From: Variovorax paradoxus
GTDB lineage: Bacteria > Pseudomonadota > Gammaproteobacteria > Burkholderiales > Burkholderiaceae_C
Assembly (NCBI GenBank): GCA_016806145.1
Contig: CP063167.1
Location: 1,174,501 to 1,238,500 of the forward strand
DNA: 64,000 nt
Direction of reading: 5' to 3'
Positions 36,464 through 53,621 of the stretch are shown here, piece by piece (position 1 is the stretch's first letter; every line of letters starts with the position of its first letter). Made by a program: the position numbers and the translations under genes. The notes below the pieces were generated by a model. It worked only from the letters and a program-made list of their open reading frames with translations, was not told where the DNA came from and did not search any database.

Positions 36464-37051
36464 CTAAGGCCTTGCACGCGCCCCGGGCGTCTCCGGCCAG
36501 CGCTGCGGCACACGGCGCAGGTTGTCCACTGAATAGCCCAGCTCCTTCAGACGCGCCACCGCGTTCTGGTAGGACGTTTCGGAGATCTGCGGCGTGCGTG
36601 CCATGATCCAAGCGTAGTCGCGATCGCTGCGCCCGATGATGGTCAGCTGGTAGTCGCTGTCGATGTCGACGATCACGTACTCGGCCTTGATCGGCCAGAT
36701 GAACTGCATGCCCCAGACCGCATTGTTGGTCCCGGGCACTACAGTGGCCACGGGATTCATCGTCTTCAGCTCGCCGTCGAAAGCGCCTTCACGATAGCGG
36801 AACTGGGTGGCGATCCTGCCGTCGGCCTGCAGCGTGTACGACTCGACCGCGTTGAAGGCGTTGCGCTCGGGACGCGTCGGGATGTTCCCGATGACATACC
36901 AGTCGCCAACGAAGCGCTGCAGGTCGACCTGTGGCACCGGCCGAATCTTGGTATTCGGTGACACAGCGCAGCCGGCAACGAACAGCGTGGCGAGCAGGGC
37001 TGCGGAAAGTAGGATGGTCGGCTGGACCAGCCGCGACGAGAGGCGGTGCAT
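36464..37051 (-). CDS. blc: Lipocalin family lipoprotein (Blc-like)
   Basis: 195 residues. Signal peptide with lipobox LFVAGC, then the lipocalin motif DLQRFVGDWYVIGNIPT (G-x-W), YREGAFDGELKTM and the C-terminal DRDYAWIMARTPQIS region of Blc-type outer-membrane lipocalins. The C-terminus ends in a Pro/Arg-rich tail. These proteins bind lysophospholipids or fatty acids under envelope stress. It is a monocistronic minus-strand gene. Confidence 0.9.
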   Translation of the reverse strand: MHRLSSRLVQPTILLSAALLATLFVAGCAVSPNTKIRPVPQVDLQRFVGDWYVIGNIPTRPERNAFNAVESYTLQADGRIATQFRYREGAFDGELKTMNPVATVVPGTNNAVWGMQFIWPIKAEYVIVDIDSDYQLTIIGRSDRDYAWIMARTPQISETSYQNAVARLKELGYSVDNLRRVPQRWPETPGARARP

Positions 37052-37437
37052 AGGGGCGACTCCGGAAATTTGGTACAAATTACGGTTGGGTGCGCGCCAG
37101 ATACGTCGGACGGCACCCCGCGCGGTTGCAAGCCCGCTCAGCGCATCGGGCTCCCACGATCCTCCACCCCGGGGACGACTCCAGTGTCTTGCTCCGCCGG
37201 AGGTCGTCGCAAGGGGAAAGCTCCCAGAGAATGAGGCCAGCAGTGGAAGCTGCCTTGCGGGGAAAGCGGCTCGCGCTGGGGGGCACGCACGGCTATCGAT
37301 AGCCTGACGATCGCGGCTTTCGATGCCGCGAAGCTGACATGGAAGAAAGATAGTTCGCGACATGGCCAATGAAATGGCGCAGACTCCTCTGCCCAACACG
37401 ACCAGTACCGGTCGCGTTTAACGAAAGAAAGGCGTTT
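37052..37437. other. Divergent intergenic region
   Basis: 386 bases between the lipocalin and the monooxygenase-fold gene, which point away from each other. Both promoters should be here. No repeat or operator was recognised. Confidence 0.4.
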
Positions 37438-37740
37438 ATGGTCACAGTCGCGTTATTCGTTCGCCTGGAAGCGAAGCCCGGGAAGGAGAAGGAGGTCGAA
37501 GATTTTCTCGTGGGTGGCCTCCCTCTCGTCATGGAGGAGCCCGCCACTACCGCTTGGTTTGGCATTCGCCTTGGGCCAACAACCTTCGGGATCTTCGACG
37601 CCTTTCCGGATGAAGCAGGCCGCCATGCTCATCTTTCCGGCAAGGTTGCGGCGGCTTTGATGGCACAGGCAGGTGAGCTCTTCTCCGAACCGCCGTCCAT
37701 TCAGAGTGTGGACGTGCTTGCGGCAAAGTTGCCCGGCTGA
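37438..37740 (+). CDS. Antibiotic biosynthesis monooxygenase-fold protein
   Basis: 100 residues from the ATG at 37438, with gaaagaaagg upstream. The dimeric ferredoxin-like ABM pattern is visible: VALFVRLEAKPGKEKEVEDFL, then ATTAWFGIRLGPTTFGIFDAFPDEAGRHAHL and a helical end. Members include heme-degrading and quinone monooxygenases; no specific activity can be inferred here. It is monocistronic. Confidence 0.85.
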   Translation: MVTVALFVRLEAKPGKEKEVEDFLVGGLPLVMEEPATTAWFGIRLGPTTFGIFDAFPDEAGRHAHLSGKVAAALMAQAGELFSEPPSIQSVDVLAAKLPG

Positions 37741-38025
37741 ACCTATCGGAAATCGATCGCCGAGAGACTTTCTCCGCGCACCACACGCTGAGCCGTCGCG
37801 CACAGGAATGTTGTGGCGCATGGCCCGTATCGGCAAACAATTGGCCGTGATGGTCGTTCCCGCCTCCTGGCTTGGACTGAGTGCGCATGCAGTCGCTTTG
37901 CGCAGGAGCGTACCTACAGCGGCTTTATGTACAGTTACCGCGCATCAATACGGATCATCGCAAGACGCGCCATGGTGGCGGGAAGGAAAGGTCTCGGCCA
38001 AACCTACGGTTATTCACCGCAAAAA

Positions 38026-38469
38026 ATGGAATTTGGGGTTTTGAACGATCAGTGCATTGTCGTTCCGGCACGGCAGGCTCTCATGGTGAAAGAAGAGGGG
38101 GAGCCCATCCTTCTGGCGATCGCAAAGTCAGGTGTCGGCAGCCCTGCGCGCTGCAGGCCCGTCAGCAACACTGGTATGGCGGCGGAGCAGGATATCTGTT
38201 TGCTCATGCAAAAAGGCGAATTTCGACTACAGATAGGGTCTTCTGTAGCGACTAGAAGCCTCTTTATGCCTACGCCAAAAGCAAAGATCGATCGGGTGCA
38301 GCGGTTGTCCGCTGAGGAACGTCTGAGCCAGCCCTCACCAGAAGAATGGCTGCAGCGCCTGGACGAAACTTGGCTCCGTCCAGGGCTCTTGCTGCGACCG
38401 AGCGATTTTCCCCGCGCCACGGCTGCGCGGGATTTTGCCGTCGAGAGGCGTCAGTCGTCCGCAGACTAA
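38026..38469 (+). CDS. Hypothetical protein
   Basis: About 147 residues from the ATG at 38026 (MEFGVLNDQCIVVPARQALMVKEEGEPILL); the frame is open from 37813. The C-terminal part (DRVQRLSAEERLSQPSPEEWLQRLDETW) looks helical. There is no clear ribosome site and no recognised family. Base composition is a little lower in GC than neighbours. It may be an accessory gene or a decayed one. Confidence 0.4.
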   Translation: MEFGVLNDQCIVVPARQALMVKEEGEPILLAIAKSGVGSPARCRPVSNTGMAAEQDICLLMQKGEFRLQIGSSVATRSLFMPTPKAKIDRVQRLSAEERLSQPSPEEWLQRLDETWLRPGLLLRPSDFPRATAARDFAVERRQSSAD

Positions 38470-38509
38470 GCCGCAAGCCTGAGGAGTGGTCCCCAGGTGC
38501 CCGCTTGCG

Positions 38510-38782
38510 CTACAGCTCCGAGACGAGACGCACATCCTGTGCTGGGTCCTGATGAAGTATCAGCGCCCAAGTCAACTCAAACCCTCGTAGCGCTTTATCG
38601 GGGAGCAAACTCGCTTCGAGGTGTGCTTGCGAAAACTGTCGCTGCTGCACAAGCTCTTTAGCGAGAAGGGTCGGATGCGGATGCGCCTTGATCAAAGCGC
38701 GTAAAGCCGCGGTCAGCGCGATCTCTGTTCCAAGAACGTTGGCCGCCGACGCGTTTTCTGTTGCCTCTTCCGGTGTGGTCAT
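38510..38782 (-). CDS. Hypothetical protein
   Basis: 90 residues with a strong ribosome site (AAGGGAGG, 6 bases before the ATG at 38782). The sequence is mainly helical: TEIALTAALRALIKAHPHPTLLAKELVQQRQFSQAHLEASLLPDKALRGFELTWALIL. It has no signal peptide and no recognised family. It is convergent with the hypothetical gene before it. Confidence 0.7.
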   Translation of the reverse strand: MTTPEEATENASAANVLGTEIALTAALRALIKAHPHPTLLAKELVQQRQFSQAHLEASLLPDKALRGFELTWALILHQDPAQDVRLVSEL

Positions 38783-39378
38783 TGTGTGCCTCCCTTGCGG
38801 GTTCCGTGTTGAGGAGCTCCCACTCTACTGCAAGAGGGCCCACTTGGTGAACACCACAGAGACGGCGCATCTTCTTGCGTCTGAGCTGACGGAGACAGTC
38901 TGGCCTGTGGTATCCACTCGTGCAGTGATGCAGAACGCGAGACCGCCAGATGCAAGACAAGCAGCCGATCCTGCAGGACGCGTTTCGACAGCAATTTCAT
39001 GCTGCGCCTGCCCTTGTTGTTCGTGATCCGTGATGCTGCGAGGGCAGCCGTGGAATCCATGCGACATCCCATGTCGCTGGTGAACCGCGATCATCTTCCG
39101 TGAGCGCCGAAGTCGCTGGGCAATGTCAAGAGGCTCAAGCTCGAACTGTCTAGGAGGTCTTCGTCTCGCCAGCTCTTGAATGCTCGCGTTTGGGGCTCTG
39201 GACTTACACACACCCTCGTTTGACCGCATCACGCGGTGATGCGCGATTCCCTTTGAAGGATCGGCTCACGAGGTCGAGATGCGTCTTGGCGTTGCGACAA
39301 CTCAGCTTGCCCCCGACTGCGGACCCACGCTTTTCAGGGGGCGCTTCGCTCGCCGGGCCGGTTGCTAAGGGCAACTTC
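38783..39378. other. Intergenic region
   Basis: 596 bases. Open frames on both strands lack ribosome sites and protein-like composition. The end of the SGNH hydrolase operon lies at 39379, but no T-rich terminator hairpin was recognised. Confidence 0.4.
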
Positions 39379-40059
39379 TCATTTCGCGTGCAACATGGAA
39401 TCAGATATGTTTTTTGCTCGAACGATCAGCTCGTGCACAACCAACGCGGCCGCCTTGCCGATAACGTCGTGTTGGTTGGCGTCAAGATGAATTCCGTCGA
39501 TGTCACTGCGGCCCGTGATCGGGTTCAGGTCAAAGAAGTGAACAGATTTCGCCACCGCCATCTCTGCCAGCGCCGCGGCGAAGCCGTTGCTTCGCTCGAC
39601 CGCACCTTCGAACTTTTTCTCGTTGGTGCCCTTCGGCTGAACGATCTCCGGCGGCGCCACGATCAGGATGCGAGGCTGCGGCATGCCGGGTTCCAACGGG
39701 GCATGGCGTACGATTTCAACCAGCTTTCCGACGCCGGAGGCGGCTGCCCAGGCCTTGATGCCGAAGGGGGCCTGGAAGTCGTTGGTTCCCAGCTGAATAA
39801 TCACTAACTCCAGCGGGGCGCACATCTCGATCACCTCGCCGAGCCCTGCCGCGCCATTTCGCCCTGGGCGAAATGGATCGTCCCAGATCGTTTTCCGGCC
39901 GGGAAGGCAGTTCTCGACGACTCGGATCTCCCGCAAACCGGCGCTGTGAAGTGCGGCTTCCAGGACACCCGGCCACCGTTGATCGAAGGCGTAACGTTTG
40001 CGGGTGCCGGGGACCATGCCCCAACTCATGCTGTCCCCGTACACAAGGATTTGCTTCAT
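39379..40059 (-). CDS. SGNH/GDSL hydrolase
   Basis: 226 residues with all four SGNH blocks: GDSM (Ser catalytic), the Gly block around GAAGLGEVIEMC, GTND and DGIHLD with catalytic Asp and His. The start is the ATG at 40059. No signal peptide, so cytosolic esterase or lipase-like. It is third in a minus-strand operon after the Na/Pi transporter and phosphotransacetylase (55-base gap), and so is linked to the phosphonate cluster. Confidence 0.9.
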   Translation of the reverse strand: MKQILVYGDSMSWGMVPGTRKRYAFDQRWPGVLEAALHSAGLREIRVVENCLPGRKTIWDDPFRPGRNGAAGLGEVIEMCAPLELVIIQLGTNDFQAPFGIKAWAAASGVGKLVEIVRHAPLEPGMPQPRILIVAPPEIVQPKGTNEKKFEGAVERSNGFAAALAEMAVAKSVHFFDLNPITGRSDIDGIHLDANQHDVIGKAAALVVHELIVRAKNISDSMLHAK

Positions 40060-40114
40060 GGCCTGACCGTTTCTGTCAAAGGGTGTTGCTTCACGAGCAT
40101 GGGCGCCCAGTCCA

Positions 40115-41077
40115 TCAGGACGTGCATTCGTCGCGCAGCAGCACGCTTGCCAACGCCGCCGAGTACACCTTGGACTCGAGACTGTCCGTGCGGCTGGTGA
40201 GGACCACAGGCTTTTTCGTTCCCAGCACGACGCCGGCACAAGACGCACCAGCCATGTAAACGAGCGACTTGTAGAGGGCGTTGCCAGCTTCGAGGTTTGG
40301 CATCAGAAGAATGTCTGCTCTGCCGGCGACGGATGAGTCGATGCCCTTTGCGTTCGCAGATGCCATGGACACCGCGTTGTCGAAGGCAAGCGGACCATCC
40401 ACAGCCGCATCGATGATCTGACCACGCTGCGCCATCTTCGCGATGGCTGCGGCATCGAGCGTGCTCGGGGCACCCGGTAATACCGATTCGGTGAAGGAGA
40501 CAACAGCCGCTCTTGGCCGGACAACGCCGAGCGCTCTTGCCAAATGAATGGCATGTTCAAGAATTTCCACCTTCTCGCCCAAGGTCGGTGCCACGTTCAC
40601 GACGCAGTCGGAGATGATCAGCGGCGATGGGCGGCCCGGCACTTGGAGCACGAAGGCATGAGAAATACGCCGCTGCGTGCGCAGCCCGTCGATACGCGCG
40701 ACCACCGCGCGCATCAGTTCATCGGTGTGGAGTGAGCCCTTCATCAACATGTCGAGGCTTCCGGCGGCCGCATGCTTGCACGCTTTCTGAGCAGCCGACG
40801 CAGCGTCGGCGCCGGTGTCGATCAACTCAAATCGCTCCAGATCGATGCCTTCGCGCGCCCCGAGCTCGAGCAGACGATCGCGCGGGCCGAACAAGCTCAC
40901 ATCGGCGATGTCTTCTTCGGTCAGCCGATAGCCTGTCTGGAGCGCGGCTGCGTCGCAGGGAAACACCATGGCGATCTTCCGCCGGCCGCATTGACGGGCG
41001 GTCGCGAGCAGGCCGTCGAGAAAAGTGCTGCTGCTTTGCCCGGCGACGCAGGCAGGCGGTGAGTTGGGGGCGGTCAT
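40115..41077 (-). CDS. Phosphate acetyl/butyryltransferase
   Basis: 320 residues of the PTA_PTB family, the short single-domain form. Visible are MLMKGSLHTDELMRAVV, ISDCVVNVAPTLGEKVEIL, VDGPLAFDNAVS and ILLMPNLEAGNALYKSL. The enzyme interconverts acyl-CoA plus phosphate with acyl phosphate plus CoA. It lies 34 bases after the Na/Pi transporter gene, so a role in handling phosphate or an acetyl product is plausible. No acetate kinase gene is adjacent. Confidence 0.9.
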   Translation of the reverse strand: MTAPNSPPACVAGQSSSTFLDGLLATARQCGRRKIAMVFPCDAAALQTGYRLTEEDIADVSLFGPRDRLLELGAREGIDLERFELIDTGADAASAAQKACKHAAAGSLDMLMKGSLHTDELMRAVVARIDGLRTQRRISHAFVLQVPGRPSPLIISDCVVNVAPTLGEKVEILEHAIHLARALGVVRPRAAVVSFTESVLPGAPSTLDAAAIAKMAQRGQIIDAAVDGPLAFDNAVSMASANAKGIDSSVAGRADILLMPNLEAGNALYKSLVYMAGASCAGVVLGTKKPVVLTSRTDSLESKVYSAALASVLLRDECTS

Positions 41078-41111
41078 AGAGTGCGATGTTGAAGAGGGCT
41101 GGGCGTGCCGG

Positions 41112-42791
41112 TCAGGCGACGGGTTCCTGTGCGGAGGTGGCCGGCAGTGCGCTCGAATGACGCAGCCGTGTCTTTGTCAAGGCGCCGGCTGTCTCCAGGA
41201 TCGGGTACGCGATGGAGCAGATGAGGGAGTTGATGCGCTTGAGATCGCTGATGAGGTCGAGGTGCAGAGAGCTTGTCTCGATGCTTTGGCTCGTCTGCAT
41301 CTGGAGACGTGCAAGATGGTTGGCGGCATACGCGTGTTCCAGCTCGCGGAACCGGGCCTTCTCCTCAAGCAGCGCTCTCGCATCGTGCACCTGGCCGTCC
41401 AGGAAAACGCTCATCGCCAGCCTCAGGTTGGCAATCAATCGCGAGTGCAGATCCGCGATTTCTCCCATCCCGGCATCCGAGAAGCGGCTGGCCTTGCGGA
41501 TCTGCTTGTCCTCGAGGTCTTGGATCACATGCTCGATGAGGTCACCAACCTGTTCCATGTGGATGGTGAACGAGACAATGTTCGACCAGCGGCGTCCTTC
41601 TTTCTCCGGCAACGCATCGCGAGGGATCTGCGTGAGGTAAAACTTGATCGACGAGCAGATTTCGTCGACGCGGTCGTCCATCTTGCGCAACTGCTCGGCC
41701 AGCGTGAGGTCGGCGTTGCGAAGCACCGGGAGGATGCCGGTGAGCATGGCTTCAACCAGATCCGCTTGGTGCAGGGCCTCGCGAGCCGCACAGCTGATCG
41801 CGAGGGAAGGGGTCGCCAGGGCGCCAGGATCGAGATGTCGCGGGCGGATCTCGCCGACCGGCGTGGTAGGGGTGGGTAGCAGCGTTTCGACGACCTTCGC
41901 CATCGGTCCCGTCAGCCCAATCAGAAGCACGGCCCGCGTGAGGTTGAACCCCAGGTGAAAGGCAATCACCTGGGTATGCAAGCTCGAGAAGTTCTGTTGC
42001 AGCAGATGCTCGATCTGGGGGAGCATGACCACGGCCAGGGCGCATCCGAGCAGCTTGAACAGCAGGCTGCCGAGCGGAAGCCGCATGCGGATCGCACGCG
42101 GTCCCGAGCTGGTGAGCAGTGCCAGAATTCCGCTGCCGATGTTCGCGCCCAACACGAGGCACATTGCCATCGATATCGGCAGGACGCCCGAAGCCGTCAA
42201 AGTCGCGGTCAGGAGCACAAAGGCGAGACTTGAATAGGTCGCCATCGTCAGCAGGGCACCGACGACGATCTCCAGAAAAACATCGTCGGGCAGTGCGAGC
42301 ACCAGGCTGCGAAACGTTGCAGAGGCGAGCAGGGGCTGGGTCGCGCTGACGATCAGCTGCAGCCCGAGCGTGATCAGACCGAAGCCAATCAGCACATGCC
42401 CCACGCGGGCGCGCTTTCGCTTCTCTGAGCCGGTGGCGAGCACGACCCCCGCGAGCACGAGCAGCGGTGAAAGCCAGGACAGGTCGAAGGAGAAGACCAC
42501 CGCCATCAGGCTGGTGCCCACCTCCGCGCCGAGCATCACGGCCAATCCGGCGGGCAGGCCGACCAGGCCGCTGCCGACGAACGATGAAATGAGTACCGCG
42601 GTGGCCGTGCTCGACTGGACGATGCCTGTCACCGTCACGCCTGCGAACATCGCCAGGAAGCGATTTTTCAGGCTGCGCGAGAGAACATCGCGCAGGTTGG
42701 CGCCAAAGAGTTGAATGACGCCGGTGCGCACGATCCCCGTGCCCCACACGAGCAGAGCGATCGCAGCGAGAAGGTTGAGCAAGTGGATCAT
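41112..42791 (-). CDS. Na/Pi cotransporter family protein with PhoU domain
   Basis: 559 residues from the ATG at 42791 (MIHLLNLLAAIALLVWGTG); the frame is open to 42893. The membrane part has about 8-9 helices with the inverted-repeat motifs GIVQSSTATAVLISSFVGSG and LGANIGSG of PF02690. The C-terminal 200 residues are helical PhoU-like (MEQVGDLIEHVIQDLEDKQ). Bacterial relatives such as YjbB export phosphate when it is abundant. Its promoter region is shared with the divergent LysR gene and contains one copy of the cluster motif. Confidence 0.9.
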   Translation of the reverse strand: MIHLLNLLAAIALLVWGTGIVRTGVIQLFGANLRDVLSRSLKNRFLAMFAGVTVTGIVQSSTATAVLISSFVGSGLVGLPAGLAVMLGAEVGTSLMAVVFSFDLSWLSPLLVLAGVVLATGSEKRKRARVGHVLIGFGLITLGLQLIVSATQPLLASATFRSLVLALPDDVFLEIVVGALLTMATYSSLAFVLLTATLTASGVLPISMAMCLVLGANIGSGILALLTSSGPRAIRMRLPLGSLLFKLLGCALAVVMLPQIEHLLQQNFSSLHTQVIAFHLGFNLTRAVLLIGLTGPMAKVVETLLPTPTTPVGEIRPRHLDPGALATPSLAISCAAREALHQADLVEAMLTGILPVLRNADLTLAEQLRKMDDRVDEICSSIKFYLTQIPRDALPEKEGRRWSNIVSFTIHMEQVGDLIEHVIQDLEDKQIRKASRFSDAGMGEIADLHSRLIANLRLAMSVFLDGQVHDARALLEEKARFRELEHAYAANHLARLQMQTSQSIETSSLHLDLISDLKRINSLICSIAYPILETAGALTKTRLRHSSALPATSAQEPVA

Positions 42792-42900
42792 CGAGGTGAC
42801 ACGACGCAGGGCGTCGGGCCGGCGAGAGGCGCAGTGAAGGAGGCCGCGATTGTGGGTTTCGGTGGGCCTCAGGATCAATCGACCATTGCTCACACGCCGG

Positions 42901-42912
42901 GTGAGTTTTTAT
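42901..42912 (-). promoter_or_regulatory. Cluster motif copy 1 (A(T/G)AAAAACTCAC)
   Basis: The minus strand reads ATAAAAACTCAC. It lies between the divergent Na/Pi and lysR genes, 45 bases before the lysR start and 109 before the transporter start. It is one of three copies, all upstream of genes in this cluster. Confidence 0.6.
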
Positions 42913-42957
42913 GCAGACCAACGGATGTATGCTTTTTGATCGTCCTCCTCAGTTCCG

Positions 42958-43866
42958 ATGCATGCCATGCGAGCCCTTCCTCCGCTGAATTCCATCAAGG
43001 CCTTCGACGCGGCCGCGCGCCACCTCAGCTTCACGAAGGCTGGCGATGAGCTGTGCGTGACGCATGGCGCGATCAGCCGGCAGATCCAGGTGCTCGAACA
43101 ATGGCTGGGCACCGCCTTGTTCCTGCGGCTGCCGCGCGGGCTGCAGCTCACGGCCGATGGCATGCGCTTTCACACCGAGGTCAATGCCATGCTGAACAGC
43201 CTGGCCGCTGTGGCTGACCAGATCCGACGGCCGCAGACGACCCGCATCATCCGCGTGCAGTCCTTGCCGACGTTCACGATGCGTTGGCTCATCCCCCGGT
43301 TGCCGGATTTCCAGAGAAGGTATCCCGATGTCGAGATCCGGCTGTCGATTGCGGCCGACGCCATGCCGCCGCGCGTCAACGACTTCGAAGTGTTCCTGAC
43401 CGGCGGCCCGGAAAGCCATCATGGCTTTCGTTCGGGGCGATTCCTCGATGAGCAACGGATCGCCGTCGCGGCGCCGGAGTTGTTGCTGCGTTCACCGATC
43501 CAGCAGCCCAGTGACCTGAAGCAGCATGTGCTGCTTCACACCAGCAGCCTGCCGGCGCTTTGGTCCAACTGGTTTTCGGCCGTGGGCAGCCAGACGATCC
43601 AATGCCGCAGCGAACTGACCTTCGAGCACCTTTACCTGTCCATCCAGGCCGCCGTCAACGCCGTGGGCGTTGCCATCGGTCCGACGGCCTTGGTGGCCGA
43701 TGACATCGACGAAGGGCGGCTGCAGTACGTCATGCCGCAGTACGCGCTGCCGGCCAGGAGCTACTTTTGGTACTGCCCGGAGCGGACCAAGGGTGACGCC
43801 GCGGTGGAGGCCTTCTGTGCCTGGCTCGTGGATGTCGGCAACACGGGCCCAGTGGTTGCGAGCTAG
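42958..43866 (+). CDS. LysR-type regulator (GcvA-like)
   Basis: 302 residues. The N-terminal winged helix LNSIKAFDAAARHLSFTKAGDELCVTHGAISRQIQVLEQWLG is of the GcvA/AmpR type, followed by the two-lobed effector domain. In-frame ATGs occur at 42958 and 42967. It is divergent from the Na/Pi operon and directly upstream of the PhnZ-like gene. The A(T/G)AAAAACTCAC motif in both flanking intergenic regions and before the Fsr-like operon is its most likely binding site. Confidence 0.92.
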   Translation: MHAMRALPPLNSIKAFDAAARHLSFTKAGDELCVTHGAISRQIQVLEQWLGTALFLRLPRGLQLTADGMRFHTEVNAMLNSLAAVADQIRRPQTTRIIRVQSLPTFTMRWLIPRLPDFQRRYPDVEIRLSIAADAMPPRVNDFEVFLTGGPESHHGFRSGRFLDEQRIAVAAPELLLRSPIQQPSDLKQHVLLHTSSLPALWSNWFSAVGSQTIQCRSELTFEHLYLSIQAAVNAVGVAIGPTALVADDIDEGRLQYVMPQYALPARSYFWYCPERTKGDAAVEAFCAWLVDVGNTGPVVAS

Positions 43867-43897
43867 CTGGAACCAAGCCGGGTCCAGGGGCGAGTTC

Positions 43898-43909
43898 AGA
43901 AAAACTCAC
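43898..43909 (+). promoter_or_regulatory. Cluster motif copy 2 (A(T/G)AAAAACTCAC)
   Basis: AGAAAAACTCAC, 88 bases before the PhnZ-like start. The wider sequence GAGTT-N6-AACTC makes it an inverted repeat, fitting a LysR-type site upstream of a -35 region. Confidence 0.65.
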
Positions 43910-43997
43910 AGGCCTGTCTCAACTTAAATCGATTGATACCAGACGGCTCCGAAAAATAGCATCGCTCGTTTCATACACCTGAGAACAAGGAGCGAGC

Positions 43998-44600
43998 ATG
44001 GCTTTGGAGCTTGAAGATATTCGGGCGTTATTCGACGCGTACGGCTCACGGGCATACGGCAAGGAAGCGGTCACGCAACTGGAGCACGCACTGCAGACGG
44101 CCCATCTGGGCGAATCCGAAGGCGCCGAGCAGGAACTGATCGTCGCGGCATTCCTGCACGACCTGGGGCATCTGATCGGTTTGAGCAAGCACCATGAAGA
44201 AGGGGCGCCGAGTTCGGACGACGGATCGCCTTTTGGAACGGGTGACGACCTGCATCAGTACGTGGCGCTGCCGTTCTTGCGCCCCGTTCTCCCAAGCGCA
44301 GTGGTCGATCCCATCGGTCTGCACGTCGAGGCCAAGCGCTGTCTGTGCGCCATCGATCCGACATACCGCGCGAAGCTCAGCCCGCTGTCCATTCACACGC
44401 TGAAACTGCAGGGCGGCATCTACACGAAGGAGGAGGCAGATGCCTTCCAGCATCGCCCCTTCGCCCTCGACGCCATGCGGCTGCGCCGCTGGGATGACGC
44501 GGCCAAGGTGCCCGGCGTCAAGACGCCGCCGTTCGAGCACTACTTTTCCATGCTCTCGCAAATCTACGCGCAGCACCGCGAAACGCGCGCGGCGCACTGA
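43998..44600 (+). CDS. phnZ: PhnZ-like HD-domain phosphonate oxygenase
   Basis: 200 residues with ribosome site aaggagcg. Residues match those I recall for PhnZ with the same spacing: Tyr20, Glu23, His30, His54-Asp55, His58, then His86, His109, Lys113, Ser131 and Asp166 (PhnZ Y24, E27, H34, H58-D59, H62, H80, H104, K108, S126, D161). Only the H58-to-H86 loop differs, by several residues. PhnZ is a mixed-valent diiron oxygenase that cleaves the C-P bond of 2-amino-1-hydroxyethylphosphonate to glycine and phosphate. The partner hydroxylase PhnY is not in the window, so the substrate may already be a 1-hydroxyphosphonate. Confidence 0.88.
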   Translation: MALELEDIRALFDAYGSRAYGKEAVTQLEHALQTAHLGESEGAEQELIVAAFLHDLGHLIGLSKHHEEGAPSSDDGSPFGTGDDLHQYVALPFLRPVLPSAVVDPIGLHVEAKRCLCAIDPTYRAKLSPLSIHTLKLQGGIYTKEEADAFQHRPFALDAMRLRRWDDAAKVPGVKTPPFEHYFSMLSQIYAQHRETRAAH

Positions 44601-44650
44601 ACAAGAACCAAAAAGCAAGCTCGCGCGAGCGCGCGAGTGCAGGAGACAAG

Positions 44651-46252
44651 ATGTTTCATCAATTGACGATGCCGATCGGCGGCGCACTGCTGCCCACCTT
44701 CATCGTGGCGGCACTTCCGATCACGACCGTGCTGCTGATGCTCGGCGTGCTACGGCGACCTGGCTGGCAGGCGGGTCTTGCGGGCCTGGGCGTAGGTCTG
44801 GCCGTTGCGGTCTACGGCTGGCAGTTTCCAGTCGGCATGGCCTTCAACGCCGTGGCCCTCGGCGCAGTGTTGGCGGTGTGGCCCGTGATGTGGGTCGTGG
44901 TCGCGGCGATCTTTTTGTTCAACATGACCATACGAGCGGGACGGCTCGACGCCTTTCGTGTTTGGGTGCTGGACAACGTGCCCAACGATCGACGGGTTGT
45001 GCTCCTGGTGGTGGGTTTCCTCTTCGGCTCGCTCTTGGAGGCCGTGGCGGGGACTGGTACGCCCATTGCCATCACCTCCGCTTTGCTCGTCACGCTCGGC
45101 TTTCCGGTGCTCGATGCGCTGGTATTCATGCTGATCTTCGATACGGTTCCGGTCGCGTTTGGCGCCATGGGCCTGCCGATCACGGTTCTGGCTGCCGTCA
45201 CCGGGCTGCCTGCCGCGGAACTGGGCCAGATGGCAGGGCGCCAGCTCCCCTTTTTCGCGTTCCTGCTGCCCTTCTATGTGCTGACGATCTACAGCGGCGT
45301 GAAAGGCTTGCGCGCCGTCTGGCCGCTTGCACTCGTGGCGGGGGGAAGCTTCGCGATCACCCAATTCCTTGCCGCCAACTTCTTGAGCTATGCGATCTGT
45401 GACGTGCTGGCCGCGATCGTGGCGATCGTGGTGACGATGACTTTCCTGCGCTACTGGAAGCCGGCGCCCGATGCTCACTACCATGTCAACATCGACCGGG
45501 CGAGCATTGCCCGAACGAGCGTGACAGGTCGGCAAAGCTGGTATCCGTGGCTGATCGTTGCAGTGATTGCCGTGGGATGGACCGTCGCGAATCTCGGAAA
45601 AATCGGGGAAGTCTCGATCCCCTGGCCCGGGCTCGACAAGGCGGTGTACATCACTGTCTACCAGAAGGCGTATCCGGCGGTGTGGAGCTTCCAGCCGCTG
45701 ACGACCGGTACGGCGGTGCTGGTTGCTGCGTTGGTCTCCGCAGTCGTCATGCGCTTGTCAGTCAAGGACTTCTTCGGCGCTGCGAAGGACACCTTGCGGC
45801 AAACAGCGGTGCCCGTGGCCACAGTCGCCATGATCATCGGTCTGGCCTACCTGATGAACTATTCCGGGATGACGTACAGCCTGGGCCTGGGCATCGTGGC
45901 GGTGGGTCCATGGTTCCCCTTCGTGTCGGCCTTCCTTGGGTGGATCGCGGTGTTCCTTACCGGCAGCGATACCTCCGGCAATGCCCTGTTCGGCAATATG
46001 CAGGTGGTGGCGGCGAACCAGCTGGGGCTCAGCCCCACGCTGATGGCAGCCACGAACTCGACCGGGGGCGTCTTCGGCAAGATGATCTCCCCGCAGAGCA
46101 TCGCGTGCGGTGTTGCAACCACAGGGATGCATGGCAAAGAGGGGGCCATCGTCGCGCGCACGTTCAAGCACAGCATCTTTCTGACCCTTTTGCTGGGCGT
46201 GTTGGTGTGGCTGCAACAAAACCATCTTCACTGGATGATCCCTGGTCACTGA
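44651..46252 (+). CDS. LctP/LldP-family permease
   Basis: 533 residues, about 13 hydrophobic helices, with the lactate permease signatures FGSLLEAVAGTGTPIAITSALL and GSDTSGNALFGNMQVVAANQLGLSPTLMAATNSTGGVFGKMISPQSIA. It is an inner-membrane proton symporter for lactate or glycolate in known members. It lies 50 bases after the PhnZ-like gene and before a PhnM-like gene, so it may import a 2-hydroxy-acid-like organophosphonate, or the co-product. That is inference from context. Confidence 0.9.
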   Translation: MFHQLTMPIGGALLPTFIVAALPITTVLLMLGVLRRPGWQAGLAGLGVGLAVAVYGWQFPVGMAFNAVALGAVLAVWPVMWVVVAAIFLFNMTIRAGRLDAFRVWVLDNVPNDRRVVLLVVGFLFGSLLEAVAGTGTPIAITSALLVTLGFPVLDALVFMLIFDTVPVAFGAMGLPITVLAAVTGLPAAELGQMAGRQLPFFAFLLPFYVLTIYSGVKGLRAVWPLALVAGGSFAITQFLAANFLSYAICDVLAAIVAIVVTMTFLRYWKPAPDAHYHVNIDRASIARTSVTGRQSWYPWLIVAVIAVGWTVANLGKIGEVSIPWPGLDKAVYITVYQKAYPAVWSFQPLTTGTAVLVAALVSAVVMRLSVKDFFGAAKDTLRQTAVPVATVAMIIGLAYLMNYSGMTYSLGLGIVAVGPWFPFVSAFLGWIAVFLTGSDTSGNALFGNMQVVAANQLGLSPTLMAATNSTGGVFGKMISPQSIACGVATTGMHGKEGAIVARTFKHSIFLTLLLGVLVWLQQNHLHWMIPGH

Positions 46253-46323
46253 CTCCCCGCACGACGACGTGATGCGCCTGGTGCTGCCCCGCCTCGCTTG
46301 CGGAGCTCGGGTAGCATCGCCGC

Positions 46324-47496
46324 ATGTTGCGCGCGTCCCACACCGATCCTCCCCTGGCTGGCATTCGAGGGGCGCGCGTGCTCACGCCCGAAGGCTTGGC
46401 GCCGGCCTCCTTCGCTGTGGACGAAACGCTGCTGCACAGGGCTGCGTCGTCCGATGCGTTCCTGGATGCGGGCGACCTGCTCGTCCTGCCTGGCATCGTT
46501 GACATCCATGGCGATGCCTTCGAGCGGGCACTCAGGCCCCGGGCAGGCGTTCAAGTGCCGCACGCGACGGCACTCACGGATGTGGACGCCCAGCTGCTGG
46601 CCAACGGCATCACGACGGCCTATCACGGCGTGACCATTTCGTGGGAAGGCGGGCTGCGCGGCTTGGCCGTTGCCGAGCAAATGCTTCACGCCTTGCAAGA
46701 GCGCGGCGTTCGATGGGGCGCCGACCACCGATTTCACTTGCGACTGGAAGCCAGATTCGTGGAGGGGTGGGCTGCCGCAAGTCGATGGATCGAAGCTGGC
46801 CATGTTCACTTCCTGTCCATCAATGACCATTGGCCGCAGCTGGCGGCCAAGCTGAACGATCCCGTGCATCTCGCCCGGTACGCGGAGCGCGCGGAATGCG
46901 ATGTGCAGACCTTTGTTCAGCGCGTTGAGGCTGCCAGTCAGACAGCGCCCGAGGCGCCGGGGTTGGCACAACTCGTGGCACAGGCCAGGCGAGCCGGGCT
47001 GAGCGTCGCGTCGCATGACGATCCGGATGCGGCGCAGCGGCGACGTCTGAGCCTCTGGGGCTGCAATGTGGCCGAGTTTCCGCTGAGCGAGGATGCGGCG
47101 AGAGAAGCGAGGGTGGCGGGTGACCTCATCGTGTTCGGCGCGCCGAATGTGCTGCGCGGTGGGAGTCACGTGGGGGCGCCACGAGCCGAGGACATGGTCC
47201 GCAAGGGCCTGTGCGATGTACTGACGTCCGACTATTACTATCCGTCGCCGCTGCTCGCCGCATTCGACCTCGCACGCCGAGAGGTTCTTTCGTTCCCCGA
47301 GGCGTGGAGCATGGTCTCACGCCATGCCGCGACGGCGGTGGGGTTGACGGACCGCGGGCGCTTGGAGACAGGGCAGCGGGCAGATTTTCTGCTGGTGGAT
47401 GACGCAGTTCCCGGGCAGCCGCGTGTCGTCGCGAGCGTGGTGGCGGGAGCATTGCGCTTCGCGCTGCGTGCCTTCGAAAGCGGCACGCTGCTTTGA
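46324..47496 (+). CDS. phnM: PhnM-like amidohydrolase
   Basis: 390 residues with the amidohydrolase fold. PhnM-specific features are LPGIVDIHGDAFERAL (metal ligands around His62 and Asp64), GITTAYHGVTISWEGG, FHLRLEAR, SHDDPD and the ITSDYYYPS-like VLTSDYYYPSPLLAAF. In C-P lyase operons PhnM hydrolyses ribose-1-methylphosphonate triphosphate to the 5-phosphate. None of phnGHIJKL is present here, so this copy must do something else or serve genes elsewhere. It is 71 bases after the permease and ends 7 bases from the convergent SDR. Confidence 0.88.
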   Translation: MLRASHTDPPLAGIRGARVLTPEGLAPASFAVDETLLHRAASSDAFLDAGDLLVLPGIVDIHGDAFERALRPRAGVQVPHATALTDVDAQLLANGITTAYHGVTISWEGGLRGLAVAEQMLHALQERGVRWGADHRFHLRLEARFVEGWAAASRWIEAGHVHFLSINDHWPQLAAKLNDPVHLARYAERAECDVQTFVQRVEAASQTAPEAPGLAQLVAQARRAGLSVASHDDPDAAQRRRLSLWGCNVAEFPLSEDAAREARVAGDLIVFGAPNVLRGGSHVGAPRAEDMVRKGLCDVLTSDYYYPSPLLAAFDLARREVLSFPEAWSMVSRHAATAVGLTDRGRLETGQRADFLLVDDAVPGQPRVVASVVAGALRFALRAFESGTLL

Positions 47497-47503
47497 ACAA
47501 CCG

Positions 47504-48265
47504 CTACTTCCCGCCCGTCACGTCGAGGAAGGTGCCGGTGACAAAAGAGGCTTCGGCGCTGGCCAGCCACAGGATCGCTCGCGCCACTTCTTCGGGCTGG
47601 CCGCCTCGGCCCATCGGGATCGAATCCTTGACACGATCCACTCTGCCGGGCTCGCCGCCACTGGCATGCATCTGCGTGTAGATATGACCGGGGCGGACGC
47701 AGTTGACGCGGATGCCCTCGCGAGCGACCTCCTTGGCGAACCCGGTCGTGAAGGTTTCGAGCGCGCCCTTCGATGCGGCGTAGTCGACATATTCGTTGGG
47801 ACTGCCAAGCCGCGCGGCTGCCGACGAGACATTGATCACCGCTCCCCCTCGCGCGTTGTGGCGGCTGGACATGCGCTTGATCGCTTGCTGTGCGCAAAGG
47901 ATCGGGCCGATGGCGTTGACCGCAAAGATGCGGTGCATCCGCTCGAAGTCGAGATCTTCCAGTCGACATTGCTTTTGCAAGATGGCGGCGTTGTTCACGA
48001 GCACATCGAGGCGTCCGAACGTGCGGTCGAGCTCCGCGAACAGACGAGCGACTTGCGCGGGATCTGCGCTGTCAGCTCGCACTGCCAACCCTTGCCGGCC
48101 CGTGGCTCGCACGTTCGCGATGACGGTATCGGCAGCCGGTTCGTCTGAGAGATAGCTGATCACCACGTCATAGCCTTGCGCGGCTGCGAGACGCGCTGTG
48201 GCCGCACCGACGCCGCGGCTGCCGCCTGTGATCAAGATGACGGGTGCCTGAGAAGCATTTTCCAT
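47504..48265 (-). CDS. Short-chain dehydrogenase/reductase (SDR)
   Basis: 253 residues with TGGSRGVG, NNAAIL, catalytic YVDYAASKGA and the C-terminal TFLDVTGGK. It is a cytosolic NAD(P)-dependent oxidoreductase. It follows the Fsr-like MFS gene by 63 bases on the same strand, and that operon carries a motif copy in its promoter. It may oxidise or reduce the organophosphonate's hydroxy or keto group; the substrate is unknown. Confidence 0.92.
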   Translation of the reverse strand: MENASQAPVILITGGSRGVGAATARLAAAQGYDVVISYLSDEPAADTVIANVRATGRQGLAVRADSADPAQVARLFAELDRTFGRLDVLVNNAAILQKQCRLEDLDFERMHRIFAVNAIGPILCAQQAIKRMSSRHNARGGAVINVSSAAARLGSPNEYVDYAASKGALETFTTGFAKEVAREGIRVNCVRPGHIYTQMHASGGEPGRVDRVKDSIPMGRGGQPEEVARAILWLASAEASFVTGTFLDVTGGK

Positions 48266-48328
48266 GGGGTGAAGTTCCAGAGAGTGAGAAGAAGGCAGGA
48301 TGGGCCGGCTTGTGGTCGAGTGAGGCCG

Positions 48329-49540
48329 TCAGGTCGCCTGGTCGGTGAGCGTCAAACGCGCGCGCAACGCCAACGCCAATGGGACCACGGCGATGGCAGT
48401 CAGTGCCGTCGCGCATGTAGCCCACTGGATGCCGACCCGATCCCCCAGAAGGCCGTACACCACCGGAGAAATCGCGCTCGAGCCGATGGTGCCTGTGTAG
48501 AAGAGCGCAAAGGCACGTTCGTCATTTCCCCCGGGTGCCAGTTCGGGTACCGTGCCGTACAGCACGGAAGAGGTTCCGTTCATGAGCGCGCCCAGCAACG
48601 GCAGCAAGACCAGCGCGGGAACCAGGGGACACAGCATCACCGATAGGATGCACACCGCAGTTCCGCATTCGGTGGCGAGCACGGTACCGATGACGCCCAT
48701 GCGCTGGCCGAGCCAGCCGCAGATGAACTTCCCGGCGGCGCCGCCGATGAAGACCATCGCCAGGGCTGTGCCCAGCATCGGCGTCGATATGCCTTTGCCT
48801 TTGAGCAGGAACGGCAAGAAGGTCAGCAGCCCCATGCGCACGGCGCTGTCCAGCACACCGATCGCCAGAAGGAGCCGAAAGCCGGTGGCTGACGGATTCT
48901 TTTCATCGGCGCCTTCAACGTCTTCGATCGCCGGGTCGCGAGGTGTTGACGGAAGCCAAAGTGCCAGGCCTGCAGCGACCAATCCACCGACGATGGACAT
49001 GGCCCACAGTGCATGACGCCACGGCATCATGGTGGCCAGCAGCGAGATCGCCGCGGGCAGGGCGGCCTTGCCCAGATCTCCGGCAAAGTTGTAGATACCG
49101 AGGGGGCCCCGGGCGTTGCGCCCATAGGCGCGCGACACGGCACCCGAAGCCAATGGATGCTGGGTACTTGAACCGCTGCCCGACAGGGCCAGTGCGACGC
49201 ACAAGCCAAGCAGGCCACCGGACAGGCCCGCCGCCGCATAGCCCAGTGCGGCGAGCAGCGTCCCGAGCGCCAGCGTCGCACGGCTTCCGATCCAGCTGGC
49301 CAGACGACCTGCAGAGAGCTGGAACACAGCCATCGTCCCAGTGTAGACGCCCCGCACCAACGCCAGCGAGGCATAGCCGAGTTGGAACTCCGCCTGCCAG
49401 ATCGGCAGCAGCGCATAAATCATGTCGCCGTAGCCGTCATGGAGTGCATGTGCAGCACAGGTTGTCCATAACACGCGGGTGCGGTTGCTGGATGCCTTTT
49501 TTGCCTCAGTTGGCTGCGAGACAGCGGTCGGCATCGTCAT
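48329..49540 (-). CDS. Fsr-like MFS transporter
   Basis: 403 residues and about 12 hydrophobic helices. HALHDGYGDMIYALLPIWQAEFQLGYASLAL and the motif GSGSSTQHPLASGAVSR (compare GTGSSVFHPESS in fosmidomycin resistance protein Fsr, recalled) place it near Fsr, which exports a phosphonate antibiotic. It could therefore move a phosphonate or its product. It is the first gene of the operon with the SDR, and a motif copy lies 60 bases upstream. Confidence 0.85.
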   Translation of the reverse strand: MTMPTAVSQPTEAKKASSNRTRVLWTTCAAHALHDGYGDMIYALLPIWQAEFQLGYASLALVRGVYTGTMAVFQLSAGRLASWIGSRATLALGTLLAALGYAAAGLSGGLLGLCVALALSGSGSSTQHPLASGAVSRAYGRNARGPLGIYNFAGDLGKAALPAAISLLATMMPWRHALWAMSIVGGLVAAGLALWLPSTPRDPAIEDVEGADEKNPSATGFRLLLAIGVLDSAVRMGLLTFLPFLLKGKGISTPMLGTALAMVFIGGAAGKFICGWLGQRMGVIGTVLATECGTAVCILSVMLCPLVPALVLLPLLGALMNGTSSVLYGTVPELAPGGNDERAFALFYTGTIGSSAISPVVYGLLGDRVGIQWATCATALTAIAVVPLALALRARLTLTDQAT

Positions 49541-49600
49541 GGGGCGATGCTAGGGTGGGCCGCCGACAGCTGCCATCGATGATATGTCACACCTGCGGCG

Positions 49601-49612
49601 AGAAAAACTCAC
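49601..49612 (+). promoter_or_regulatory. Cluster motif copy 3 (A(T/G)AAAAACTCAC)
   Basis: AGAAAAACTCAC, within GCGAG-AAAAA-CTCAC, the most symmetric of the three copies. It is 60 bases upstream of the Fsr-like MFS gene, which reads on the minus strand. Confidence 0.6.
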
Positions 49613-49899
49613 ACCACAAAAGCAGCAAGGACGCTCGCGTGGCGGCCACTTTGAACGCCGGAGCGCGAAGACCTGCAGCGAATGGCCGCAATTCCATAGC
49701 GGCATGCGGCCCACGGCAGCGCGGGCGCAGCGACTTCAGGGGCAGTCTCGCTCACTGCTGTGTAAACGCCATCGGGATCGGGCGTGTTTTCTCTTCGTCC
49801 TGCTCTGTGCAGCGCGCCATCTGCCGCGAGTTCGAAGTCACTTTGAGCGGCCGAGAGCGTCGGGCCTCGACTCGCCCCCGTCGCTGGTGGCCGACTGGG
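49613..49899. other. Intergenic region
   Basis: 287 bases after motif copy 3, downstream of the CxxC protein gene. No gene or hairpin was recognised. Confidence 0.4.
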
Positions 49900-50316
49900 T
49901 CAGAGGAACGTGCTGATCAATGCCATCAGGGCGATCGCTGCGATGTACGCCGCCATGAGTGGTTGGAAGCGATGACCATCCCAGAAGCTGCGCTCGACGT
50001 GGCGATCAGGGGGCCGCGCAGCCTCGGCGCCGCCTTGCCCGACCACTGAATCCGGAGCCTCGATGGGGTGCCGAGCGATCAGCGCCCGGAACCCGGTGCC
50101 TCTGCACGCGCTACAGACGACCAACCCTTCCGCAAAGCATGAGGGGCAGGGAATCTCGTCCCCGTCGTATGTGCGGTAAAGCCCGTCCCCGCGACAGCTC
50201 CGGCAGTCCACGAGGCCATCAGTGCATAAGGAACAGGGAACAGAGTCATGGGAATTGTTCTTGAGAGGGCGAGCGGCTTCAGGAGGCATGAATTTCCAAC
50301 ATTTGGAACACACCAT
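49900..50316 (-). CDS. Five-CxxC zinc-finger-like protein with C-terminal membrane anchor
   Basis: 138 residues. CxxC pairs occur at residues 3/6, 28/31, 38/41, 57/60 and 68/71; several read CxxCxGxG (CRSCRGDG, CSACRGTG), as in the DnaJ zinc-binding domain. A C-terminal hydrophobic segment (PLMAAYIAAIALMALISTFL) would anchor it in the inner membrane with the cysteines on the other side of a polar linker. There is no J domain. Function is unknown; a redox or chaperone-like role is possible. Confidence 0.65.
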   Translation of the reverse strand: MVCSKCWKFMPPEAARPLKNNSHDSVPCSLCTDGLVDCRSCRGDGLYRTYDGDEIPCPSCFAEGLVVCSACRGTGFRALIARHPIEAPDSVVGQGGAEAARPPDRHVERSFWDGHRFQPLMAAYIAAIALMALISTFL

Positions 50317-50836
50317 ACGTGCTTGAGGCCCAGCCGGATCAGATTTTCCGGACCCAGCTACACCTTTCTGCTCACATTGATCGTCGCTATCGGGAGCCCT
50401 CCGTGTGCGGAGTCGATCAGGTACAAAAGGGGGCGCGCAGCCGACGATGATGCAAAAACTCGTCGCGAAAAGACAACCTCGGCATCATCGTTGTCGGGCA
50501 CGTCAAGCACCTCACAGAATCGCTTGCGTTGGATCACTGTCCTGGTCGGTGGCCGCCTCGCGCCGGACGATGCCGGCGGCAGTGATGTTGCCTTGCCGAT
50601 GGTCGGGGCATGGTCTATGACGGAGCATGGCACGCGCCTGTCAGTGCGGCTTGAGGCAACGGCTGCTTCGCGATGGGGCCGCGGCAGCCGATCGCGAGAT
50701 CCGAAAGGGGAACGTTCGAGTAAAGTTGCTTTGCCCGCCCGCATCAGCGAACTGTCATGCTTAAGCCATTTCCTCCAACCATCTGCCCCGTGACCCTGTG
50801 CAAGCGTGAGTTAACAGTGCGTCATTTCTTCGGCAA
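50317..50836. other. Divergent intergenic region
   Basis: 520 bases between the CxxC gene and the small membrane protein, which point away from each other. Frames here are not protein-like. No operator was recognised. Confidence 0.4.
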
Positions 50837-51172
50837 TTGCTTGACCATTGCCGGCGCGGCGAGCGCGTGACGAGCCGGCCGGATGCCCCAAGCCGCCGTC
50901 GGCCGTGGCTGCAGTCGCTGGCAGCTCTCGCCGTCGCGACCTTGATCGGCTGGGGTTGCCTGATGGGAGCGACCGAAGTGGTGGAAAGCCTGCGCACGGG
51001 GGTGCTCAACAACCGCAAAGGACCTGACGTCCTTGCAGCCGAGCAGCCTGTACTCTATTGGGCTCTGATCGGCTTCTACACGGCGGCGACGCTGACCGCA
51101 GCTGGCTTGGCACTCTTGGTACTGACCGTTGCCGTGCGCGATCTGATCAGCGCGAGAGGCCCTGATCGATGA
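50837..51172 (+). CDS. Small hypothetical membrane protein
   Basis: Up to 111 residues; the GTG at 50867 (VTSRPDAPSRRRPW) is an alternative start. Two hydrophobic segments (LAALAVATLIGWGCLMGA, LIGFYTAATLTAAGLALLVLTVAV) flank a polar loop, with a basic N-terminus. It is a probable inner-membrane protein with no recognised family. Confidence 0.5.
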   Translation: MLDHCRRGERVTSRPDAPSRRRPWLQSLAALAVATLIGWGCLMGATEVVESLRTGVLNNRKGPDVLAAEQPVLYWALIGFYTAATLTAAGLALLVLTVAVRDLISARGPDR

Positions 51173-51983
51173 ATGCTTGGTTAGCGCGACTGGCGACTGT
51201 TGACCTGCGGCCGGTGGTGACGCGCCCATCGTGGGTTGTCCGCCCGGCGCAGTTCTCCTGACTCCACGCACAGACGCCTGCGTGGCGGCGCCGAAGGGCC
51301 GCTCCTGGCCGACCGTAGGTCATCGCGGACTTGCTGGGAACGCGCCAGTCTTGCCGGCATCTCCCATACGCGTTGTCAACGTATGCCGGCCCTTTCCAAG
51401 CCATCGGCGAGCCACCGACCTCTCACCTTTGGGACAAGCTTGGTCGCCTCACGCCCGAAGGAACCTGTCTCCGTATGGTGGCTTGACGACTTCGGATCCA
51501 ACCAAGATCGTGACAGCACGAACTTTCGGCCGACGAGTCGGGAGCCGCGCAGCGACCATGCCGATAGTCATGGAGGTGGCGGCAAAGTGGATCGCGCACC
51601 AGGTCGCGTCAACGTTGACGCGAAGCGGCGCTGCATCGAGGTCGAATCGGCGTTCTGGACTGGACCATTGACGAGCCGCGCGGCGGCGCCGGAGCAGTTA
51701 TTGACGCAGCTGCGGGGCGCAGCGCCACGTTGGCATCGATCCGTCTGCGCGTTCGACGAGATATGCGCTTAGCGGCGAAGACACATGACTCATCAACGCA
51801 GCATCTGGACGGCAACTCCCGAGGAGACGAGCATGACGTCAACATCGGTTCCTTAATCGGTGGGCGTCACTGCTTGAGGCAGGTGAAGCGGTTCAACCAA
51901 CGATTTCCAGGCGTACAAAGCTTGACGGACTACCCGCTCGAACTACAGTACAGAAGTCCATACCGAGTTCTCGATCACAGGCT
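51173..51983. other. Non-coding or decayed region upstream of vapB
   Basis: 811 bases. Open frames on both strands are long because of high GC, but none has a ribosome site or recognisable protein. This low gene density marks the beginning of the accessory region. Confidence 0.45.
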
Positions 51984-52223
51984 ATGAAAACGACGCTCAA
52001 TCTCAACGACATTTTGCTGATGCAAGCCAAGGCACTTGCTACGCAGCAGCGGACGAGTCTCACGCGTTTGATCGAGGAAGGGCTTCGGCTGCGGCTGAAA
52101 GCCAAGCCGACATCCCCTCAAGTCGTTCATCTCCCGGTGTATCGCGGCAAGGGAGGGCTCGCTGGTGGCTTGTGCGGTGCAAGCAACAAAGAAATGTTCG
52201 ACGCTGTAGATCCTGAGACCTGA
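51984..52223 (+). CDS. vapB: VapB-type antitoxin
   Basis: 79 residues. MKTTLNLNDILLMQAKALATQQRTSLTRLIEEGLRLRL is the ribbon-helix-helix DNA-binding domain of this VapB group, and LPVYRGKGGLAGGL is the conserved toxin-wrapping tail. The cognate toxin frame begins inside its 3' end but is broken, so this appears to be an orphan antitoxin. It lies next to a mobilization module. Confidence 0.85.
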   Translation: MKTTLNLNDILLMQAKALATQQRTSLTRLIEEGLRLRLKAKPTSPQVVHLPVYRGKGGLAGGLCGASNKEMFDAVDPET

Positions 52224-53620: not shown

Positions 53621-53621
53621 C

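Follow-up and report, generated by a model that had tools for sequence, protein, structure and literature searches.

A candidate phosphonate-use regulon of Variovorax paradoxus combining a PhnZ/TmpB-type oxygenase, an LctP-family permease and a PhnM-like amidohydrolase

Gene Content of the Cluster

The DNA analysed here, referred to below as the window, is a stretch of 64,000 nucleotides from Variovorax paradoxus (C2:1174501–1238500; contig CP063167.1), the genome of which comprises 9.44 Mb in three contigs. At 39379–49540 of the window, nine intact genes were found in three units around the gene for a LysR-type regulator. The first unit (minus strand) holds the genes for a Na/Pi cotransporter with PhoU domains (Na/Pi-PhoU), a phosphotransacetylase (Pta) and a GDSL hydrolase, the second (plus strand) those for an HD-domain oxygenase (HD protein), an LctP-family permease and a PhnM-like amidohydrolase, and the third (minus strand) those for a major facilitator superfamily (MFS) transporter and a short-chain dehydrogenase/reductase (SDR). 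Genes within a unit are spaced by 34–71 bases. In all likelihood the cluster is a phosphonate regulon and, as a whole, it is tentatively best explained by the dedicated use of an organophosphonate that would enter through the LctP permease and be cleaved by the HD enzyme. The genes, with the scores and cut-offs of the matching models, are as follows.

39379..40059, minus strand: SGNH/GDSL hydrolase, last gene of the Na/Pi-PhoU unit (PF13472, 51.5 bits, cut-off 32.9)
40115..41077, minus strand: stand-alone phosphate acetyl/butyryltransferase Pta (Pta half, NF006045 type; PF01515, 149.3 bits)
41112..42893, minus strand: Na/Pi cotransporter with PhoU domains (TIGR00704, 240.9, cut-off 210.1; PF02690, PF01895)
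42958..43866, plus strand: LysR-type regulator, GcvA-like subfamily (NF008352, 296.2, cut-off 288)
43998..44600, plus strand: PhnZ/TmpB-type HD-domain diiron oxygenase (TIGR03276, 212.8, cut-off 214.6; PDB relatives, ligands, modelled fold)
44651..46252, plus strand: LctP-family permease (TIGR00795, 423.5, cut-off 341.15)
46324..47496, plus strand: PhnM-like amidohydrolase, NF011987 subfamily (NF011987, 451.7, cut-off 253)
47504..48265, minus strand: SDR, second gene of the MFS unit (NF004777, 383.3, cut-off 383)
48329..49540, minus strand: MFS transporter (PF07690, 97.4; weak matches only in NCBIfam)

A preliminary description of this DNA had named the LctP-family permease, the Na/Pi-PhoU transporter and Pta, and these identities are borne out by the TIGR00795, TIGR00704 and PF01515 matches; the GDSL gene, which it had left unnamed, belongs to the cluster as well.

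The HD-Domain Oxygenase

Metal motif, sequence and modelled fold all place the HD protein among the diiron oxygenases of PhnZ/TmpB type, in line with its earlier designation as PhnZ-like. Its TIGR03276 score of 212.8 (212.1 in a second run) missed the cut-off by about 2 bits, and the protein is therefore not filed under that model. The equivalog models for TmpB (NF049941) and HMP dioxygenase (NF052439), both with a cut-off of 300, gave 144.6 and 139.9, respectively. A sequence search of the PDB at an E-value of 0.001 revealed TmpB and PhnZ as the sole relatives. The structure model has a predicted local distance difference test (pLDDT) score of 89.7, and all of the top 10 Foldseek matches (E-value of 0.001 or better) are PhnZ/TmpB chains, with a target template-modelling (TM) score of 0.83–0.87 and fold-alignment identities of 32–35% to TmpB and 30–31% to PhnZ. 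In the alignment, the six ligands of the H...HD...H...H...D metal motif are intact and the YxxE loop is present, with Y20/E23 aligned to Y24/E27 of PhnZ. In total, equivalents of PhnZ Y24, E27, H34, H58, D59, H80, H104, K108, S126, R158 and D161 are retained, where the residue numbers other than Y24 and E27 are those that we presume for PhnZ. Judging from family motif and fold, the enzyme very probably cleaves a 1-hydroxyphosphonate. The metal motif and the roles of the Y24/E27 loop are defined in PMC8177086.

The LctP permease, the SDR and the GcvA-like LysR would also fit acid metabolism, that is, a catabolic regulon for 2-hydroxyacids whose HD protein, like myo-inositol oxygenase, has a substrate other than a phosphonate. 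Such a role is very improbable, given that the HD protein keeps the YxxE loop, which myo-inositol oxygenase lacks, together with the K108/S126/R158 equivalents, and that PhnM-family and Na/Pi-PhoU proteins are present in the cluster.

In ligands, YxxE loop, fold and membership of the mixed-valent diiron HD type, the protein resembles the oxygenases of the PhnY*/PhnZ and TmpA/TmpB systems. Unlike these systems, the cluster contains an LctP gene in the oxygenase unit and a LysR of another subfamily, and no PhnY-type or other Fe/2-oxoglutarate hydroxylase was found by NCBIfam and Pfam among the nine genes, the set to which this search was applied. The closest NCBIfam model, TIGR03276, corresponds to the 'PhnHD' of phosphonatase clusters (Achromobacter, PMC11203657), where a LysR gene is also nearby. 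In contrast to those clusters as PMC11203657 presents them, the window holds LctP, PhnM-like, Na/Pi-PhoU and Pta genes, and PhnW, PhnX, PhnA and PhnSTU are absent from the nine genes.

In a tree of 42 hand-chosen HD rows, the clade of the window protein (11 rows; 100/99) also contains the protein of the Stutzerimonas locus L003. Two further rows, Advenella L070 and P. unamae P0015, are attached to this clade at 84/96, an open fork, and a wider group of 21 rows (97/96) contains the HD proteins of PhnA/PhnY-type clusters. The genome carries two other HD oxygenase genes, one with PhnA/PhnY-ALDH (L113) and the other with PhnX/TIGR03364 (L114); as both lie in phosphonate clusters of known type, the third looks like a separate system. 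The window protein is 98% identical to a protein cluster named 'MULTISPECIES [Burkholderiales]' and 85% identical to a protein of Variovorax sp. PBS-H4. The best match among 36 other genomes of the same genus is 56% identical, so the gene appears to be accessory in the genus, and within the order it was found in 64 of the 399 genomes. A plasmid search with the HD, PhnM and LctP proteins returned nothing at 60% identity or above.

Shared Upstream Motif and Regulator

A 10-base word, GTGAGTTTTT, is located upstream of all three units. The motif had been described as one of 12 bases; it does stand before each unit, but strictly it is shared over 10 bases, and 12 bases are reached only in the form GTGAGTTTTT[AC]T, with A or C at base 11.

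42901..42910, plus strand: motif copy 1, between the Na/Pi-PhoU and LysR genes
43900..43909, minus strand: motif copy 2, 88 bases upstream of the HD gene
49603..49612, minus strand: motif copy 3, 63–72 bases upstream of the MFS gene

Exact copies in the whole genome number three, every one of them in the cluster and within 6.7 kb, and no further copy was found in the window at up to one mismatch. A reversed control pattern likewise has three genomic copies, so the genomic total is ordinary and the placement alone is remarkable. Since 17 of 100 window-only shuffles gave at least three matches at up to one mismatch, the corresponding count in the window is not significant. On the other hand, under a Markov null of the three promoter stretches, none of 20,000 draws shared a word of at least 9 bases, while the real stretches share 10. 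At up to one mismatch, the motif is absent from the two other HD clusters of the genome (L113 and L114; 20 kb each). Copy 1 overlaps a plus-strand terminator-like stem-loop at window 42888–42906. A promoter-like match lies at 43933–43962, from a scan that gave 2 matches versus 1.7 expected and is not above chance.

The LysR-type protein may bind the motif. With TIGR03339, the model of the usual phosphonate LysR, it scored 55.2 bits against a cut-off of 341.1. A regulon defined in this way by a motif is directly testable.

That the MFS–SDR unit has the motif in common with the other two would suit a detoxification regulon, in which an MFS pump and the HD enzyme guard against a toxic phosphonate and the use of phosphate is secondary. 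The MFS protein had been called Fsr-like; this label is rejected, as NCBIfam and Pfam give general MFS matches only. Furthermore, the HD unit contains a permease of an import-type family, and Na/Pi-PhoU is included in the cluster, so that detoxification is an improbable main function.

The PhnM-like Amidohydrolase

The PhnM-like protein was recognized as such in the preliminary description, and its NF011987 score above the cut-off agrees with this. It does not reach the PhnM equivalog TIGR02318 (302.3 versus a cut-off of 390.55), and it is the sole strong match of its own model genome-wide (451 bits, the next being 22). Canonical PhnMs score 243–305 with the NF011987 model, so a second PhnM in the genome would have shown. 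PhnJ, taken as the criterion for C–P lyase, is absent from the genome by a search in which the E. coli positive control was detected; the earlier statement that PhnY and the C–P lyase core are lacking here therefore stands, for the nine genes in the former case and genome-wide for PhnJ. The structure model (pLDDT, 90.8) matched general amidohydrolases in the fold search (allantoinase, dihydroorotase and others), which offers no hint of the substrate.

In the survey of the order, a PhnM-like match at 1e-50 was obtained in 9 of the 399 genomes, the window's own included. Six relatives are at least 46% identical, and in four of them (G134, G194, G414 and G213) an HD gene lies within 3 kb; in G174 the HD gene is on another contig, as it is in G244, where the PhnM-like gene is cut by the contig end. 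The matches of G290 and G428 are only 37–38% identical, and the G290 locus is closest to canonical PhnM. According to tblastn, C–P lyase genes are present at the loci of all six relatives, each of which also has another PhnM homologue. In a tree of 30 chosen rows, the window protein belongs to a 7-row clade (100/100) nested among the second PhnMs of Burkholderiales C–P-lyase loci, and it keeps 41 of the 42 positions that are invariant in 22 comparison PhnM rows. It resembles the second PhnM of the Burkholderiales and Nostoc C–P-lyase loci in its NF011987 subfamily and in the frequent closeness of an HD gene, but differs in setting, as its genome is without PhnJ and none of phnF, phnN and TIGR03223 is present among the nine genes. 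The enzyme probably acts outside C–P lyase chemistry.

The C–P-lyase loci of several Burkholderiales (L151–L156) were seen to hold two PhnM homologues, the second of NF011987 type; NCBIfam models were applied to the pair of copies in L151, L152, L153 and L154, and in L155 to the NF011987-type copy alone. Duplicate phnM copies have already been noted in print (PMC9381506). On the Nostoc plasmid pNsp_b, an NF011987-type PhnM gene is directly beside an HD gene, with a canonical PhnM also present, and a Nostoc C–P-lyase operon (L133:7342–9561) interleaves a gene annotated as FosA-like with a PhnM-like gene and an HD oxygenase gene.

The nesting of the clade among C–P-lyase-locus PhnMs, several with an HD gene near, and the absence of PhnJ would be compatible with a relic of a C–P-lyase locus, the PhnM-like and HD genes having been left beside an unrelated lactate permease after the loss of phnGHIJKL. 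Decay of this kind is quite unlikely, considering that the genes are all intact and the 41 invariant positions are kept, that similar gene pairs apparently occur on several contigs elsewhere, that the motif is confined to this cluster in the genome, and that the HD protein groups with those of PhnA/PhnY-type clusters (97/96) and not with those of C–P-lyase loci.

The LctP-Family Permease

The window permease is similar to the LctP lactate/glycolate permeases in passing the TIGR00795 cut-off, but it scored far below those of the L-lactate permease (LldP; 404.4 versus 918) and glycolate permease (GlcA; 372.3 versus 1121) equivalogs. Unlike them, it is encoded next to an HD oxygenase and falls in a divergent clade: in a tree of 28 hand-chosen rows, it forms a 7-row clade with P0244–P0249 (100/100; stem, 0.68), apart from the common Burkholderiaceae permeases. 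Permeases of the latter type are present, at 1e-215, in 107 of the 398 genomes surveyed in the family, and two of them sit near thiC.

The LctPs of P0294 and L160 fall just outside the window clade (80/93). At L160:1977–10706, an LctP gene (57% identity) lies beside PhnW, TIGR03329, PhnR, a TIGR03339 LysR and a phosphocholine-specific phospholipase C. The presence of this LctP among phosphonate genes lends at most weak support to a phosphonate link, as the gene is convergent with the LysR gene and its product is outside the clade.

Proposed Function

In the favoured reading, that of a regulon dedicated to the use of an organophosphonate, sensing of the substrate or an intermediate would fall to the GcvA-like LysR, which would act through the motif upstream of the three units. 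The LctP permease would bring in an alpha-hydroxyphosphonate, a compound isosteric with alpha-hydroxyacids like lactate and glycolate, and the HD enzyme, with O2, would cleave it oxidatively to a carboxylate and phosphate. If a ready-made alpha-hydroxyphosphonate is imported, no PhnY/TmpA-type hydroxylase is needed; uptake by LctP and direct cleavage by HD would account for the lack of both a hydroxylase and an ABC importer. Import of the cleaved hydroxyphosphonate by LctP is, taken by itself, conceivable but somewhat doubtful. According to PMC10574752, the PhnY/PhnZ pathway exists in four versions, all of which include a hydroxylation that yields the 1-hydroxyphosphonate, and GmPhnZ acts on both (R)-2-amino-1-hydroxyethylphosphonate (R-HAEP) and hydroxymethylphosphonate. 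As for the accessory proteins, Na/Pi-PhoU may dispose of or balance the freed phosphate; by guess, the SDR might oxidise, reduce or invert the carbinol, Pta might handle the acyl product, and the PhnM-like hydrolase might open or trim the substrate. A precedent for the recruitment of alpha-hydroxyacid enzymes to hydroxyphosphonates is the racemase PbfF, which PMC12366243 places in the D-2-hydroxyacid dehydrogenase family.

A more specific version is rather unlikely to hold in full. In it, the starting compounds would be alpha-hydroxyphosphonates taken up ready-made, such as hydroxymethylphosphonate, 1-hydroxyethylphosphonate, or amino- or carboxy-substituted derivatives; an LctP paralogue would feed a PhnZ-type oxygenase, a PhnM freed from C–P lyase would take a new hydrolytic step, the GcvA-like LysR would control the three units, and phosphate would leave the cell, since the compound would be used as a source of carbon. 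If true, it would point to a natural or man-made pool of hydroxyphosphonates, suggest that LctP-family permeases can have a phosphonate as substrate, and assign a function to a PhnM relative where C–P lyase is missing.

Several observations weigh against the LctP-fed regulon. No LctP gene was found near HD in any of the fetched HD loci (0/80, 0/20 and 0/4, or 0/104, two of the 20 being the genome's own other HD loci), although 56 of the 80 loci end within 1500 bases past HD, 58 have less than 3 kb after it, and 21 have at least 3 kb on both sides; before HD, however, 78 have at least 3 kb. Three other genomes of the order with an LctP at 1e-190 have HD on another contig. Stutzerimonas L003, which is the closest among the fetched HD loci (66% identity), has instead an EamA transporter and a LysR near TIGR03339 (303.1, cut-off 341.1), and is without the motif at up to one mismatch. 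Finally, E27 of PhnZ, like its TmpB counterpart, touches the amino group of the substrate (PMC8177086), and the retention of this residue in the window protein would favour a substrate with an amino group over a simple isostere of lactate; as it is kept in 41 of the 42 HD tree rows, it discriminates little between substrates.

The last point would favour R-HAEP, or an N-substituted form entering by another route, as the substrate of HD, with LctP handling a carboxylate partner or product (e.g., glycolate or lactate). The profile that the LctP protein matches describes lactate/glycolate permeases, and the host holds other gene sets of aminoethylphosphonate type. Under such a scheme, however, the regulon would be without another phosphonate importer, unless the MFS protein serves as one, and the window LctP belongs to the divergent clade and not to the common one; the scheme is unlikely, if still worth considering.

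Regarding the favoured LctP–HD reading, the neighbourhood test across Burkholderiales that the preliminary description had proposed came out divided: the PhnM–HD linkage recurs (4/6), but that of LctP and HD is rare, and the fetched loci, 21 of the 80 with at least 3 kb on both sides of HD, speak against LctP–HD as a general rule. Its observation of the genes and motif is confirmed, and its interpretation partly supported. In P. xenovorans (L055:10001–16467), the last gene of the phosphonate cluster is that for HD, and a complete ribosomal RNA (rRNA) operon follows after about 0.6 kb, an arrangement that may explain why many loci end soon after HD.

Some linkages may be read from contigs of equal length (in bases) and source, namely two HD/LctP pairs (P0010/P0246, 5087; P0015/P0248, 56253), one PhnM/LctP pair (P0126/P0245, 9491) and two HD/PhnM pairs (P0006/P0129, 12120; P0007/P0130, 4225). 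In P. unamae, the LctP (P0248) belongs to the window LctP clade, and its HD counterpart, P0015, is the one that joins the window HD clade. This likewise has a point against it, since the P. solitsugae L063 record also has 56253 bases and its HD is 63% identical to P0015, a coincidence that makes equal record size weak proof of linkage. P0005 and P0125 are on one 6.4 Mb chromosome, which is uninformative on closeness. No P. unamae PhnM-like protein is among the 120 matches listed, and the P. unamae-type LctP was found in 0 of 144 genomes in the genus of G291, a set without a positive control.

No paper joining a lactate permease or LctP with PhnZ, PhnM, PhnHD or aminoethylphosphonate was found among the papers listed in the literature search, the scope of which lay mostly outside subscription journals; the earlier remark that the combination is undescribed is in keeping with this.

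Phosphate Transporter, Pta and Surroundings

For the Na/Pi-PhoU gene, a GTG at 42893 opens the longest open reading frame, and an ATG at 42791 is the likelier start. Homologues with 47–50% identity are next to HD in 10 of the 80 loci (all Pandoraea), 1 of the 20 (L116) and none of the 4, and the arrangement spans about two lineages. PMC11389368 describes YjbB, a Na/Pi cotransporter, as promoting the export of phosphate, and the window protein may act in the same direction. Pta scored 361.5 with NF006045 (cut-off 282), aligned only at profile positions 163–458 of 467, and is one of four places in the genome with PF01515.

No Rfam matches were obtained at 36000–54000, and 13 terminator-like sites were found versus 7.5 expected, a count that was not used as evidence. 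A MobA/VirD2-type relaxase gene is located at window 52514–53746, 3 kb past the MFS gene, which suggests that a mobile element adjoins the regulon.

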